NCBI GenBank assembly: GCA_905233645.1
Contig: CAJODZ010000003.1
Coordinates: 1-32,846 of the forward strand
DNA length: 32,846 bases
Reading direction: 5' to 3'
Source of the DNA: an uncultured Synergistales bacterium
GTDB lineage: Bacteria; Synergistota; Synergistia; Synergistales; Aminobacteriaceae
Below the pieces are notes generated by a model. It was not told the DNA's origin. It did no database searches and was given only the letters and a program-made list of their open reading frames with translations. The translations under genes and the position numbers were made by a program. This document shows positions 13,372-22,183 of the stretch, one piece after another (position 1 is the first letter of the stretch; each line of letters begins with the position of its first letter).

Positions 13372-13503
13372 TTTAATTTTCAACCTCCTGTTTAAAAATA
13401 TAACACCATTTTTAATATCGGAGCTAAAATTTTGCGTTATTAACCTAACAAATTATTTTCGGCTAAAAAATCCTCAAACTTTTTTATAGCTCAAGCTCTT
13501 TGA

Positions 13504-13557
13504 TATAATAAACTCAATTTTGAAACAGTCCCTTAAAATTTACGAGGGGCTGTTTTT
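13504..13557 (+). ncRNA. Possible very short transcript: TATAAT box immediately followed by a terminator
   Basis: A perfect TATAAT (13504-13509) with a weak TTTTTA 17 bases upstream would start transcription near 13516. Only a few bases later, AACAGTCCCT (13524-13533) pairs with AGGGGCTGTT (13545-13554), followed by TTTT. The hairpin itself is convincing as a terminator. The idea that it ends a roughly 40-base RNA is an inference; it could equally stop read-through towards the plus-strand gene. Confidence 0.4.
13524..13557 (+). terminator. Intrinsic terminator hairpin upstream of the 127-bp repeat
   Basis: A 10-bp stem (AACAGTCCCT with AGGGGCTGTT, one G-T pair) has an 11-base loop and a T run on the plus strand. 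The dispersed repeat begins three bases later. Confidence 0.72.
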
Positions 13558-13559
13558 TG

Positions 13560-13686
13560 CAACTACGTTTACCACTACAAAAAAGCTTTTAAAAATTTAA
13601 TCGCCGCATAATTTTTAAGCACATCGATTTTTAAACAAAGTGTTAAATTTTTTGAGGCGTGTTGAAAAATTTTTAATTATATTTTT
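13560..13686 (+). repeat. Dispersed intergenic repeat, copy A (127 bp)
   Basis: The sequence from CAACTACGTTTACC to AATTATATTTTT matches the reverse complement of 21923-22049 over 127 ungapped positions with six differences, counted by eye. It has no coding potential, no terminal inverted repeats and no IS features. It can fold weakly: a TTAAAAATTT arm against AAATTTTTAA, with GCC against GGC inside. It ends 129 bp before the start of the flippase-like gene and reads in the same direction as that gene. Confidence 0.9.
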
Positions 13687-13743: not shown

Positions 13744-13773
13744 TTGCAAGTGTTTAATTAAAATTGTGATAAT
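13744..13773 (+). promoter_or_regulatory. Predicted sigma-70 type promoter for the flippase-like gene
   Basis: TTGCAA (13744-13749), an 18-bp spacer and GATAAT (13768-13773) lie 43 bp before the TTG start at 13816. The same TTGCAA element precedes the cheV and tRNA-Ala promoters in this window. An alternative extended -10 (TGCTATAAA, 13701-13709) lies closer to the dispersed repeat. Confidence 0.55.
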
Positions 13774-13815
13774 ATTCATTAGTTAGAAATCATTTAAATT
13801 ACGGAGTGGTAAATT

Positions 13816-14871
13816 TTGTCGCTCAGAAAAGGTTTAATAATTTTCATACTGCTTGCGTTTGGAGCAGGCGGGCTTAATGTCGCAAGGAGTGTCGATAAAT
13901 ATACGATACATTCACTCTTGACGGCTGATAAATTAAAATTGCTGTTAGCATTATGTGTAGTGTTTGCTGCTTGGATTTTTGATGCAGGCAGATTTTGCGC
14001 GTTGTCATCAGCTGCTAACGAACATGTAACTTTTTCAACGGGAATAATTTTAACTTGGCTTAATTATTTTGGGAGTGCCGTTACTCCAATGCAGAGCGGC
14101 GGCGGGCCTTTTCAAGTTTACGCATTATATAAAAAAGGCGTTCCAGTCGGTAAAGGTATCGCTATAACTTTAATGCGAACGATGTTGACGGTGTTGATTT
14201 TAAGTTTAACTGTACCGGCGGCTGTATTGCTTGACCCCGAAATTTTAGCCGGCAGTAAATTTTTAAAAGGCTTAGTCTTTTACGTCTTCGTCATAATTTT
14301 AGCAACGTGGGCATTTATTATTTTTACGCTGATTAGACCGGACTTGTTTAAAAAAATGGGGAAGATAATAATTTTATGGTTCAGACGTTTTAATTTTATG
14401 CGCTCTAATCGAAAAGTTATAAACGCTTTTAAATGGCTTGACCGCGAAATTGATAATTACATTTTAAATTTCAGATTAGTTTTTGACAGCGGCAAATTAT
14501 ATTTTTTCGCAGCTTTAATTTTATCGGCATTGCATTTACTGGCGTTATTTACAGTTTTGCCGGTCTTAATGAGTGCTGTAGGTTTGCCGTTCCAATATTT
14601 GCAAACAGTCGCTATTCAAGCCGTTTTCATGTTCATTTTATATTTCGTGCCAACGCCTGGAGCTAGCGGTGTCGCTGAGGGCGGAGGTGCTTTGTTATAC
14701 AGTATGTTAATGCCGGCGAATATGGCTGGTATTATGTCAATAATATGCAGATTTTTCACGGATTATATTTCAATTTTTATGGGAGTTGTTGTTGTGATTA
14801 AAATGCTTGGTTGGGGTGTAACTGAAAATTTACACAAGGGCGAGTCGCCTGATTCGGGAGCTTTGGTTTAA
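13816..14871 (+). CDS. UPF0104 / LPG-synthase-TM-like flippase domain membrane protein
   Basis: This 351-residue integral membrane protein has about eight helices. It belongs to the UPF0104 family (lysylphosphatidylglycerol synthase transmembrane region, flippase-like). Family hallmarks are visible: the N-terminal helices, SAVTPMQSGGGPFQVYALYKKGVPVGKGIA, and the C-terminal PTPGASGVAEGG. It lacks the soluble aminoacyltransferase domain of full MprF, so lysyl-lipid synthesis is unlikely. A role in moving a lipid or lipid-linked molecule across the membrane is the usual inference. The TTG start at 13816 is 9 bases after GGAG. A methyltransferase-like membrane gene follows at 14874 with a 2-base gap, so the two are probably co-transcribed. 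Confidence 0.85.
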   Translation: MSLRKGLIIFILLAFGAGGLNVARSVDKYTIHSLLTADKLKLLLALCVVFAAWIFDAGRFCALSSAANEHVTFSTGIILTWLNYFGSAVTPMQSGGGPFQVYALYKKGVPVGKGIAITLMRTMLTVLILSLTVPAAVLLDPEILAGSKFLKGLVFYVFVIILATWAFIIFTLIRPDLFKKMGKIIILWFRRFNFMRSNRKVINAFKWLDREIDNYILNFRLVFDSGKLYFFAALILSALHLLALFTVLPVLMSAVGLPFQYLQTVAIQAVFMFILYFVPTPGASGVAEGGGALLYSMLMPANMAGIMSIICRFFTDYISIFMGVVVVIKMLGWGVTENLHKGESPDSGALV

Positions 14872-17270: not shown

Positions 17271-17538
17271 GACAATCCGTCTGCTATAGCGATTTCCATT
17301 TTACAGCATCATAAACAGGCTGTCCCTCAAGTTGAACTATTTTAGCTTTTGGAAATTCTTTTTTAACAACATCAAAATACGACCTTTATCCGTTACTGTT
17401 ATAGTAAAGGCTGGGTCGTTAAGCTGTTGAATTGATGTTATAGGCTCTTTAGCAGAACAATCTGAAAAATTACAGCAAATTATGAGCAAAGAATAGAATA
17501 ATGCAATATGCAAATCTTCTATAACCAAATACGCTCAT
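17271..17538 (-). pseudogene. Decayed duplicate of the 5' end of the ABC binding-protein gene
   Basis: This 268-bp block matches the first 308 bp of the intact binding-protein/permease gene (20585-20892), mostly base for base. Its ATG (17538-17536) overlaps the stop of the ABC ATPase gene in an ATGA junction. It carries a one-base insertion near codon 11, a one-base deletion in the run CCC at about 17380, and a deletion of roughly 40 bp whose ends fall in two CCATTT motifs. No further part of the gene is present. A 63-residue frame (17337-17528) can still be read from an internal TTG but keeps only the signal-peptide region. I read it as the relic of a tandem duplication of the transporter operon. 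Confidence 0.9.
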
Positions 17539-18608: not shown

Positions 18609-20892
18609 GAATTTCAATCCCCCTTAAAATATCGTTCTTCGTTCTTTTTTCCGGTTTAATTCGATTGTGAATGATATTGACAATTATGTTAAGCATTCCG
18701 GCAAGAACAAAATATATTACTGCAACAGCTATCAACGGGAAGAATGCCTCATACGTTCTGCTTCTCACGATATCGCCCATCTTCGTTAAATCCTGAACAG
18801 CAATGTAACCAACAATCGCAGTCGCTTTTATGAGAGCAACGACTTCAGCTTTATATGCCGGCATAAAATGTAATGCTGCCTGCGGAAGAATAATCGTGAA
18901 AAATGCTCTTCTGTCCGTAAATCCCAATGCGTACGCTGCTTCGAGCTGTCCTTTGTCCAACGCATTAACACCAGATAAAAGCATTCCGTAAACTCCAGCT
19001 CCGAATGTCAGCGAGAACGCAATCACAGCTACCCATATTCCGGCTATGTCAACATTTCCGAAGATTATGTAATACAAAATCATTAACAGCACGACCATAG
19101 GCATCCCCTGAATTAGCCATACGAAGAAACGTGTAACAAGGTTTGCGATGATGTTTCCGCCCCTGCATGAGAGATACACTATAAAGCCCAGAATTGTCCC
19201 GCCTAAAATCGAAAATACAGTAATTATCATTGTGCTGATTATGCCTTCAACGAAGAGCCGCCACCTGTCTTCACGGATAAACGTGCGTTCAAAACTTGAT
19301 TTGATATTGTCAAAAAAATTATTTTGCTCTATCTCAGCAGGTTGGACAGTTTCAGCAGATTTCATGACAATAAGCACTATTGGAGTTTCTGCATTCGGGA
19401 CAGGTGAAAATAACATCGTTTCGGCTCGTTCTTCTGTACGTGTTATACTGCCGGTTAAATCGCATTTTCCAGTTTTGATTGAGCCTAAAATTCCTGCAAA
19501 ATTCATAGAATAGACTTCAAGTCCGTAACCTTTAGCCTTACAGAACATTGTTGCAATGTCTATATCATAGCCCGTAATTTTATTATCTTTTACGTAAGCA
19601 AAAGGCATACGCCCTGTATCGATTGCCATTTTAAGAATACCGTTATCTGCAGGCAGTTTTGAATAATCCTCAGTCGTTCGCGACAGCTCGTCTTCACTGT
19701 AAATCCATTTGTCTAAAAGCTGTTTAATAGTTCCGTTATCCCATAAAGATTTTACAAATTCGGCATACTCATCACAAAACTTATGCCCTTTATCAGAATT
19801 AGTAAACGCTGAATAAGTATACGTGTTTTCGAGCGGTTCTGATATATAAGACATATCTTTATGCTCATACGTCATGTATATTGCTGTAGGGAGTGTGTTT
19901 GTGAAAGCATCAATTTTACCTGTTTTAAGAGCAAGTGTTATGGCACTCAAATCACTAAAGTATTCAATTTGAGCGTTAGGAATTTTTTCAGCAACAAAAA
20001 TATCATGGTTTGCTCCTAAAATAATTCCGATTTTTTTGCCGTCAAAGTCTTTTAATGATGAAGGTATTTCAGCTGCTGAAGGCATATTATTGTCTTTTAT
20101 CATCAACGCAACTTCTTCAGTTAAAAGCACGTCGGAAAAATCAATTTTTTCTTTTCGTTCAGGAGTAACATTTAAGTTCGCCATAATGCAGTCAATTTCG
20201 CCTGTATGTGCTGCTGCGATTAAACCGCCGTAATCATAAGTTCTAAATTCTACTTCTGCTCCAAGCCGCTTCGCTAACCTTCTGCCTAGTTCAATATCAA
20301 AACCGGTTAAAGTAATACCCTCGTAATAACTAAATGGTATAACAAGTCCAGACGTACCTATTACAATTTTTAGCTTTGATGACGAAGGCAACTCAATTTC
20401 AGGCATAGTATTTTCAGCGTTAATTACCCAGCGTTTATACATGTCTTGAAGAGTTCCGGAGGCTTTAAGCTCAGAAATGAATAAATTTATTTTTGTTCTC
20501 AAATCGGGAATTTTTGACGCTCTTGAAATTCCAACAGCAATTTCAACTTTATCGCCGACATTGCCTGGTAATATTTTTACACCTGACAATCCGTCTGCTA
20601 TAGCGATTTCCATTTGAACGCGGCTGTAAGCATAAGCATCAGCTCTTCCCATTTTTACGGCATCATACGCAGGCTGTCCCTCAAGGTAGATTATCTTAGC
20701 TTTTGGAAATTCTTTTTTAATAACATCAAAATACGACCCTTTATCCGTTACTGTTATAGTAAAGGCTGGGTCGTTAAGCTGTTGAATTGATGTTATAGGC
20801 TCTTTAGCAGAACAATCTGAAAAACTACAGCAAATTATGAGCAAAGAATAGAATAATGCACACGCAAATCTTCTGTAATCGAATACGCTCAT
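18601..20892 (-). CDS. ABC transporter binding-protein/permease fusion (amino-acid type) with permuted binding-protein lobes
   Basis: This 763-residue protein combines solute capture and membrane transport. A signal peptide or anchor ([19 protein letters not shown]) leads into a partial family-3 binding-protein segment (about 30-155) that resembles the second lobe. A complete binding protein follows (about 170-397; [41 protein letters not shown]). Next comes a first-lobe segment only (about 415-515; [29 protein letters not shown]). A HisM/GlnP-type permease follows (about 545-750), with the EAA motif in [29 protein letters not shown]. It lies 8 bases after the PAP2 gene and overlaps the ATPase gene, so all three should be co-transcribed. 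The substrate is probably a polar amino acid but cannot be fixed. Confidence 0.9.
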
Positions 20893-20900
20893 TAAAAAAA

Positions 20901-21833
20901 TTATTTTCTCCCTGTGAATATTTTCAAAACCAGCGGCCAGAGTATCATTACAAAAAAGAAGAATACAAATTGATAAACCAGCTTCCCGATGTGAGGGCCA
21001 AATGTGTTATTCATGATGACTTTGAGACTTTCCACCATCCACGCAACAATAACAAGACCGATTGCACAGAGAATAACGCCTTTAACATTCCAGCCCGTAG
21101 CAGAAAATTTTATCCAGCGCTGTTCAATGTACCATGCTAACGCAAGCGCAACAAGTCCTCCGGCATCTCCCCAAGCGTCTATTTGCATTTTCACGGGGTC
21201 AACTAATAATTTTCCGTCAACATAATCCATAGGATAAGGCTTATAACTAATATAAACGAGCGTTAAAGTTCCGACAGCAGCAAGAATTATCATAGCAAGA
21301 CCAAATTTTTCGGGTTTCCTGTCGAGATAATCAAGCAGTAATTTAGCAACATATATTGACGCAGCTCCAAGCACTACTCCAACGAGAACGTCCTGCGGAG
21401 TGTGAACACCAAGATAATTACGCGAAAACATTGTAATTAAAATCAACGCAATCCAGAAAAGACGCGCAATTTTATTTTTCGTGATACAAGCTAATCCGCC
21501 GTAAATAGGAGTTACCATCATTGTATGACCGCTAGGAAATGAATAACCTCCAGCCGTTATTATCGCGTCTCCTGCCGGAATAATTCTTGCATCTCTTACC
21601 CACGGGCGGTATATACAAGCTGTTAATTTGACCATTGCGTTAAAAGTCTGGCTGATTTTCCATGCGGAAAGAATAAATAACCCTTTGCGTTTGTCCAGGC
21701 ACCAATAAACGAAAACCGGAATTAAAATTATGTTATTTATTCCAAAATATGAAATCCATTCCATAAAGGGCGTTAATGCATCGTTAATACCGTTTCTGAA
21801 ATCCTGAAGCCACAATAAATAAGTTATATCCAT
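20901..21833 (-). CDS. PAP2-family membrane phosphatase
   Basis: PAP2 enzymes remove phosphate from lipid phosphates such as phosphatidate or polyprenyl pyrophosphate at the membrane. The 310-residue protein has about six to seven helices and all three catalytic motifs: KLTACIYRP (Lys 69, Arg 76), PSGH (100-103), and SRNYLGVHTPQD (Arg 138, His 144, Asp 148). It is longer than minimal members, with three extra C-terminal helices. ATG at 21833 follows AAGGAG by 8 bases. Its leader contains a terminator-like hairpin and, further up, the second copy of the 127-bp repeat. It is the first gene of the transcript that includes the ABC transporter. Whether the phosphatase and transporter cooperate is unknown. 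Confidence 0.9.
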   Translation of the reverse strand: MDITYLLWLQDFRNGINDALTPFMEWISYFGINNIILIPVFVYWCLDKRKGLFILSAWKISQTFNAMVKLTACIYRPWVRDARIIPAGDAIITAGGYSFPSGHTMMVTPIYGGLACITKNKIARLFWIALILITMFSRNYLGVHTPQDVLVGVVLGAASIYVAKLLLDYLDRKPEKFGLAMIILAAVGTLTLVYISYKPYPMDYVDGKLLVDPVKMQIDAWGDAGGLVALALAWYIEQRWIKFSATGWNVKGVILCAIGLVIVAWMVESLKVIMNNTFGPHIGKLVYQFVFFFFVMILWPLVLKIFTGRK

Positions 21834-21888: not shown

Positions 21889-21922
21889 ATTTTAACACCT
21901 GATTGAGATATAACGCCCTTAA

Positions 21923-22049
21923 AAAAATATTATTAAAAATTTTTTAACACGCCTCAAAAAATTTAACACTTTGTTTCAAAATCGATATGCTTAAAAATTA
22001 TGCGGCTATTAAATTTTTAAAAGATTTTTTGTAGTGGTAAACGTAGTTG
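21923..22049 (-). repeat. Dispersed intergenic repeat, copy B (127 bp)
   Basis: The reverse complement aligns without gaps to 13560-13686 with about six differences. It reads in the same direction as the PAP2 gene and ends 89 bp before that gene's start. Weaker similarity continues a few bases past the end (TTAAGGGCGTT against TTAAGTGCATT). Confidence 0.9.
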
Positions 22050-22183
22050 TAAAACTCAATGGTATTTTTAAAATTTGGAAAGATAATTTTTTAGTCAGAG
22101 GCATTATAGCAAAAATTCTTTTTTAATTTTGAGTGATAATAATTTATAAACATAATCTCAAAATATGAAAGAGGCTCTTTTTT

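Follow-up and report, generated by a model that had tools for sequence, protein, structure and literature searches.

A small intergenic repeat with a tandem 12-bp core, dispersed at fairly regular intervals in the genomes of rumen Synergistaceae

Two copies of a non-coding element in one contig

In a stretch of 32,846 nucleotides from an uncultured Synergistales bacterium (assembly GCA_905233645.1, contig CAJODZ010000003.1; hereafter the window), two non-coding sequences of 127 bp resemble each other in the gaps between genes. The earlier note pointed out that each copy reads towards a membrane-lipid type gene and suggested a conserved cis-element, a leader RNA or a family of small RNAs, with a dead miniature transposon as the main alternative. 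We then asked what this element is, how often it occurs, and whether it is linked to the genes next to it.

The alignment of 13560-13686 (+) with 21923-22049 (-) showed 95% identity over 127 bases, and the ungapped match extended over 132 nt. Both copies were located in divergent intergenic regions, and their flanks differed. The observation of the repeat itself was therefore confirmed, but two corrections were needed. The terminator-type hairpin, which had been noted near each copy, is part of the element only at copy 1, while copy 2 has no hairpin before its core and belongs to a hairpin-less subtype. In addition, the repeat is not a pair, because the same genome holds about 95 copies. The likely element is also longer than 127 bp, from an extended -10 about 60 bp before the core to about 95 bp after it. 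The features of the two loci, with promoters predicted from sequence, are as follows.

13501..13509 (+), extended -10 promoter of copy 1 (TGATATAAT)
13525..13558 (+), terminator-type hairpin of copy 1 (ACAGTCCCTT...GAGGGGCTGT) plus T-tract
13560..13578 (+), core of copy 1, CAACTAC-GTTTA-CCACTAC, a tandem 12-bp dimer
13579..13584 (+), A-tract following the core of copy 1
13630..13653 (+), box B of copy 1 (TTTAAACAAAGTGTTAAATTTTTT)
13560..13686 (+), copy 1 as first described, without its promoter and hairpin
13765..13775 (+), own promoter of the flippase-like gene (TGTGATAATAT), between element and gene
13816..14871 (+), flippase-like membrane protein gene, 351 aa, a neighbour and not part of the element
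22103..22111 (-), extended -10 promoter of copy 2 (TGCTATAAT)
22031..22049 (-), core of copy 2 (CAACTACGTTTACCACTAC), with no hairpin before it
21956..21980 (-), box B of copy 2 (TTTGAAACAAAGTGTTAAATTTTTT)
21923..22049 (-), copy 2 as first described
21889..21897 (-), promoter-like -10 of the PAP2 gene (TGTTAAAAT), between element and gene, identified from sequence only
20901..21833 (-), PAP2-type phosphatase gene, a neighbour and not part of the element

To estimate the copy number, we searched the genome to which the window belongs (G000, a rumen Synergistaceae MAG of 1.57 Mb in 94 contigs, about 80% complete). A sequence search returned at least 40 matches, and a pattern search for the first 24 bases found 90 places, 41 on one strand and 49 on the other, whereas the reversed control pattern gave none. 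By pattern searches the element was found in 22 of 43 genomes of the genus (21 in a separate pattern search) and in none of 140 other genomes of the order. Named records with related copies are mostly goat and red-deer rumen or reticulum MAGs labelled Synergistaceae, Synergistales or Fretibacterium. No match was found in the phage collection, and the window has no Rfam match other than a tRNA. Five hits on viral contigs and five on non-Synergistaceae genomes lacked the scaffold described below where their sequences were inspected. Within a genome the copies are alike, while between species mainly the scaffold and the tandem nature of the core persist.

The interpretation of the earlier note was only partly supported. 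A simple gene caller placed the nearest genes around about 90 copies in all four arrangements about equally (24, 23, 22 and 17), indicating random orientation to genes. Matches to the flippase-like protein were found in 41 of 43 genomes of the genus and to the PAP2 protein in 40, but none of the 13 and 14 upstream regions, respectively, inspected from other species carried the element. The predicted promoter TGTGATAATAT of the flippase-like gene, located between element and gene, is also present in another genome of the genus (G025), which lacks the element there, and this contradicts a leader function for that gene. The PAP2 gene likewise has the -10-like TGTTAAAAT between element and start codon. 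A link to envelope-lipid genes or a cis-acting leader is thus not supported, and neither is a dead miniature transposon, since orthologous copies show purifying selection on the core (see below), although the copies are dispersed in both orientations. In contrast, a conserved non-coding element without IS features, detectable terminal inverted repeats or coding frame was supported, and a small-RNA family remains possible because many copies carry a predicted promoter.

Scaffold, tandem core and selection

Copies were oriented and aligned to determine the anatomy of the element. From 5' to 3' were observed an extended -10 (TGnTATAAT or TGnTAAAAT) some 48-75 bp before the core, a hairpin with T-tract of the intrinsic-terminator type in many copies, the core CAACTAC-GTTTA-CMACTAC, an A-tract, some 45 bp of lesser conservation, and box B (TTTNAAACAAAGTGTTAAATTTTTT), about 50 bp on from the core and mostly 81-100% conserved by position across G000 copies. 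The motif TGnTAnnAT was detected in the expected window in 45 of 88 copies against 0-4 of 88 in nine control windows. The core with its tracts is a tandem repeat of a 12-mer (TTTNCAACTACN x2): a scan for near-identical 8-mers between a T-tract and an A-tract gave 151 overlapping hits at period 12 and 1-13 at the other periods from 9 to 15. No consensus RNA structure was found from core to box B (RNAalifold 0.0 over 88 copies).

The hairpin is linked to the direction of the upstream gene. A stable fold before the core (MFE at or below -8) was present in 36 of 46 copies whose upstream gene reads towards it and in 20 of 42 others (p = 0.004), while no such link was observed with the right-hand gene (31/48 and 24/39). 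Co-directional upstream genes often end 59-88 bp before the core. This fits a terminator that protects the site or serves the upstream gene, as inferred from sequence.

The two halves of the core change together. CAACTAC pairs were observed in most genomes, CAGCTAC pairs in G062, and CTAATAC pairs in part of the copies of G017 and G062 (G017 and G062 being further genomes of the genus). A profile built only from sequence downstream of the core was then run over 1.12 Mb of the genome G020, and a second set was found with the same scaffold and the core TTGGGGACTAC-AATGGGGACTAC. Across the genus this second dialect occurs in numbers only in the sister species G007 (33) and G020 (41). In a comparable search of about 355 kb of G000, all 26 strong profile hits carried the core, and only the CAACTAC dialect was found. 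In total, CAACTAC, CAGCTAC, CTAATAC or GGGGACTAC pairs occur on one scaffold, although slippage or gene conversion between half-sites could produce part of this pattern. Tandem arrays of two units about 190-290 bp apart, some with a CAGCTAC core next to a CAACTAC unit, were observed at loci L203, L228 and L161 (JAFSNU contigs), on contig C101 of G017 and on contig C85 of G062.

We next tested whether the core is under selection. A query lacking the core found its 40 best matches all at places that carry the core. Copies persist at orthologous sites in the sister species, and for 16 copies at orthologous places in G007 and G020 the core plus tracts differed at 9 of 464 sites (1.9%) and box B at 11 of 382 (2.9%), against 46 of 583 (7.9%) between promoter and core and 159 of 2502 (6.4%) in the left flank (p = 2e-5 for core plus tracts against left flank; bootstrap ratio 0.29, 95% interval 0.11-0.54). 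The core thus evolves 3-4 times more slowly than flanking DNA. The right flank, at 4.6%, probably includes coding sequence, and loci at which one or both flanks did not align within the part of G020 examined could not be scored for presence. In G007 against G020 the alignment breaks next to or near the element at three loci (L395 against contig C1 of G020 at 257813, L398 and L409), a possible sign of rearrangement at copies. The variable stretch between promoter and core evolves like neutral DNA, and a guide-RNA reading of this stretch was rejected. Two exact 19-bp cores without the scaffold were found in G000 on the opposite strand inside intact reading frames, in proteins that look by sequence like hydroxymethylbilane synthase (hemC; L105, contig C25 near 21276) and the flagellar hook-length protein FliK (L090, contig C11 near 11400), and both encode VVVNVV at that point. 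This hints that the core itself, as DNA, is the unit that matters.

A coding function was rejected by sequence inspection, as open frames exist in a few copies but stops vary, no start is shared, and third codon positions of the invariant CTAC blocks never vary. No complementarity of the core to the rest of 1.12 Mb of G020 was detected beyond chance. The marks of mobile elements were also tested. The consensus ends of one subtype look inverted by eye, but inverted alignment of left to right ends within a copy scored no better than between different copies (20.53 vs 20.58). No target duplication at a fixed offset was clearly above permutation, although locus L116 (core at 1569) is flanked by an exact 25-bp direct repeat (TAAAATCTTTGACCAATCATTTTTA), and about 17 G000 copies of one subtype have TGACCAAAT-like direct repeats (TGACC repeats) on both sides of the core, about 145 bp apart. 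The Y1_Tnp (PF01797) transposase was absent from G017, G014, G020, G007, G064, G027, G062, G066 and G034, all of which carry the repeat. Among the neighbouring ORFs, grouped into clusters without annotation, no recurrent neighbour family or transposase was recognised, a comparison that does not extend to all transposase families in the whole genomes. Elsewhere in the window, a near-identical 123-nt stretch (99%) plus a flanking 89% match between two neighbouring genes 3.35 kb apart (17299-17505 and 20653-20860) looks like recent gene conversion, and a perfect 33-bp tandem duplication (11-residue repeat) lies inside a 127-aa reading frame (2531-2596).

Spacing of the copies along the chromosome

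Copies avoid each other and are spaced at fairly regular intervals of 13-20 kb. In G000, 45 within-contig gaps have a CV of 0.56 against 0.85 +- 0.11 for random placement (P = 0.0002), and 3 are under 5 kb against 14.8 expected, but regularity beyond a 3-6 kb exclusion model is not shown for this genome. In G007 and G017 no gap tested was under 7 kb (P = 0.0009 and 0.006), the tested gaps not including the tandem duplicates about 200-300 bp apart that occur in G017 and G062. In G020 the CAACTAC copies alone show exclusion but not regularity. When the second dialect was added, however, 43 gaps were obtained with a mean of 18.5 kb and a CV of 0.45 against 0.93 for random placement, none under 6 kb and 42 of 43 within 6-36.5 kb, and this series is more regular than a 6-kb exclusion model (P = 0.005). 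None of 22 second-dialect copies lies within 6 kb of a first-dialect copy (6.8 expected, P = 0.0004). No orientation preference relative to GC skew was observed (48 of 91).

Interpretation and related systems

We tentatively favor the reading that each copy is a chromosomal landmark site, probably protein-bound, although our confidence falls short of even. The analysis itself establishes about 95-100 dispersed, nearly all intergenic copies per genome in random orientation, the fixed scaffold with its optional hairpin, the 12-bp tandem direct repeat with co-varying halves, the slow evolution of the core at orthologous sites, the preferential retention of hairpins behind co-directional genes, the mutual exclusion, and in G020 the regular spacing that spans both dialects. 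What we infer beyond this is that the core is read as DNA by an unidentified protein with two like DNA-binding units, each contacting one 12-bp half-site, that the hairpin stops upstream transcription before it crosses the site, and that the promoter of the element makes a short or read-through RNA of unknown use. In this view the family first spread by DNA transposition as a non-autonomous, MITE-like repeat, and a host need for one site every 10-30 kb now holds the copies in place, for example for domain anchoring, topology or marking of self DNA, while the recognition code has switched in some lineages with site and reader changing together. A bolder form, possible but less likely than not, is that of about 100 evenly spaced sites whose tandem 12-bp word can be swapped as a unit on a constant promoter-terminator scaffold, as a system of a kind not yet known for organising or marking the bacterial chromosome at intervals of about 18 kb. 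Against the landmark reading, no reader protein was identified, many copies carry a promoter that a pure DNA site would not need, no single position is essential as positions differ between distant species, and about half of the congeneric species show no recognisable copies. The spacing could also reflect transposition immunity or selection against recombination between nearby repeats.

The main rival, which we consider somewhat unlikely, is a mobile MITE-like repeat of little use to the host, mobilised by an unidentified transposase that binds the tandem 12-mers and perhaps box B, with long-range target immunity keeping copies apart. The dispersal in random orientation between genes, the differing positions between distant species, the homogeneity within and divergence between genomes, the exclusion within about 6-7 kb in four genomes with few exceptions, the direct repeats around some copies and the tandem units all agree with it, but it is opposed by the core-specific slow evolution, by the absence of fixed-offset target duplications, of terminal inverted repeats and, in the high-copy species, of a Y1 transposase, and by exclusion between two dialects with different cores. 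A multi-copy small-RNA family, in which an unstructured core transcribed from the extended -10 would act in trans as a binding site for an RNA-binding protein or RNA, is less likely still. The enrichment of predicted promoters at a fixed position, a -10 hexamer nearly unchanged between orthologues and a conserved region of fixed length speak for it, but a terminator-type hairpin lies between promoter and core in 56 of 88 copies, neither a consensus structure from core to box B nor complementarity of the core to the examined part of G020 beyond chance was found, and a small RNA needs neither regular spacing nor core-only copies inside genes. A signature of the DNA-uptake type (USS/DUS-like), kept by biased uptake of self DNA, would fit the species dialects, the short conserved core in near-neutral surroundings and the association with terminators, but it is very unlikely, as about 100 copies per genome is sparse for fragment uptake and the scaffold with promoter and box B is conserved too. 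The leader for envelope-lipid genes, for which only the direction of the two window copies speaks, is the least likely of these.

The element meets the full definition of none of the known systems tested here. Coxiella burnetii QMITE1/QMITE2 (PMC5896051) share some 50 dispersed non-coding copies, sigma-70 promoters in QMITE1, small RNAs from some copies and conservation in linkage between strains, but they are described as MITEs with direct repeats of 2-11 nt, whereas here neither terminal inverted repeats nor fixed-offset target duplications were found, and no tandem 12-mer core, regular spacing or dialect switching appears in the abstract of that study. Pneumococcal repeats include BOX, RUP and SPRITE (PMC3049150). 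These are modular, transcribed intergenic repeats with conserved and variable modules, but BOX amplifies an internal module, whereas here the core is a dimer with 12-bp period and copies exclude one another. REP/BIME elements are associated with RAYT transposases (PMC2817692). They occur in about 100 or more intergenic copies with species-specific sequences and hairpins, and GTAG, expected at the foot of a conserved hairpin, occurs here on the minus strand of each half-site of the CAACTAC type; the hairpin is, however, variable or often absent, the GTAG units are separate from it, and the high-copy species have no Y1/RAYT transposase. DNA uptake sequences of Neisseria and Haemophilus (PMC3630211) were also compared. 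Those are dispersed, differ in dialect between species and are associated with terminators, but the sites here are far fewer and the scaffold with its own promoter is much larger. Dispersed nucleoid sites include matS, Noc and SlmA sites (PMC3116907). Tens to about a hundred of such sites are read by one DNA-binding protein, but they are short bare motifs, while here a tandem direct repeat sits in a transcription-unit scaffold and the sites are spaced apart. CodY boxes of Synergistetes (PMC9318921) are palindromes with AT-rich arms and do not match the tandem core.

Dispersed intergenic repeats are usually treated as transposon debris. This family shows together three things that debris should not, namely per-locus selection on a short core, non-random spacing around the chromosome, and a recognition word that switches as a unit. 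If the sites organise or mark the chromosome, a Synergistaceae genus with dozens of sequenced species becomes a natural experiment on how such a code and its reader change. If instead immunity sets the spacing, the family is an unusually clear genomic record of long-range transposition immunity.
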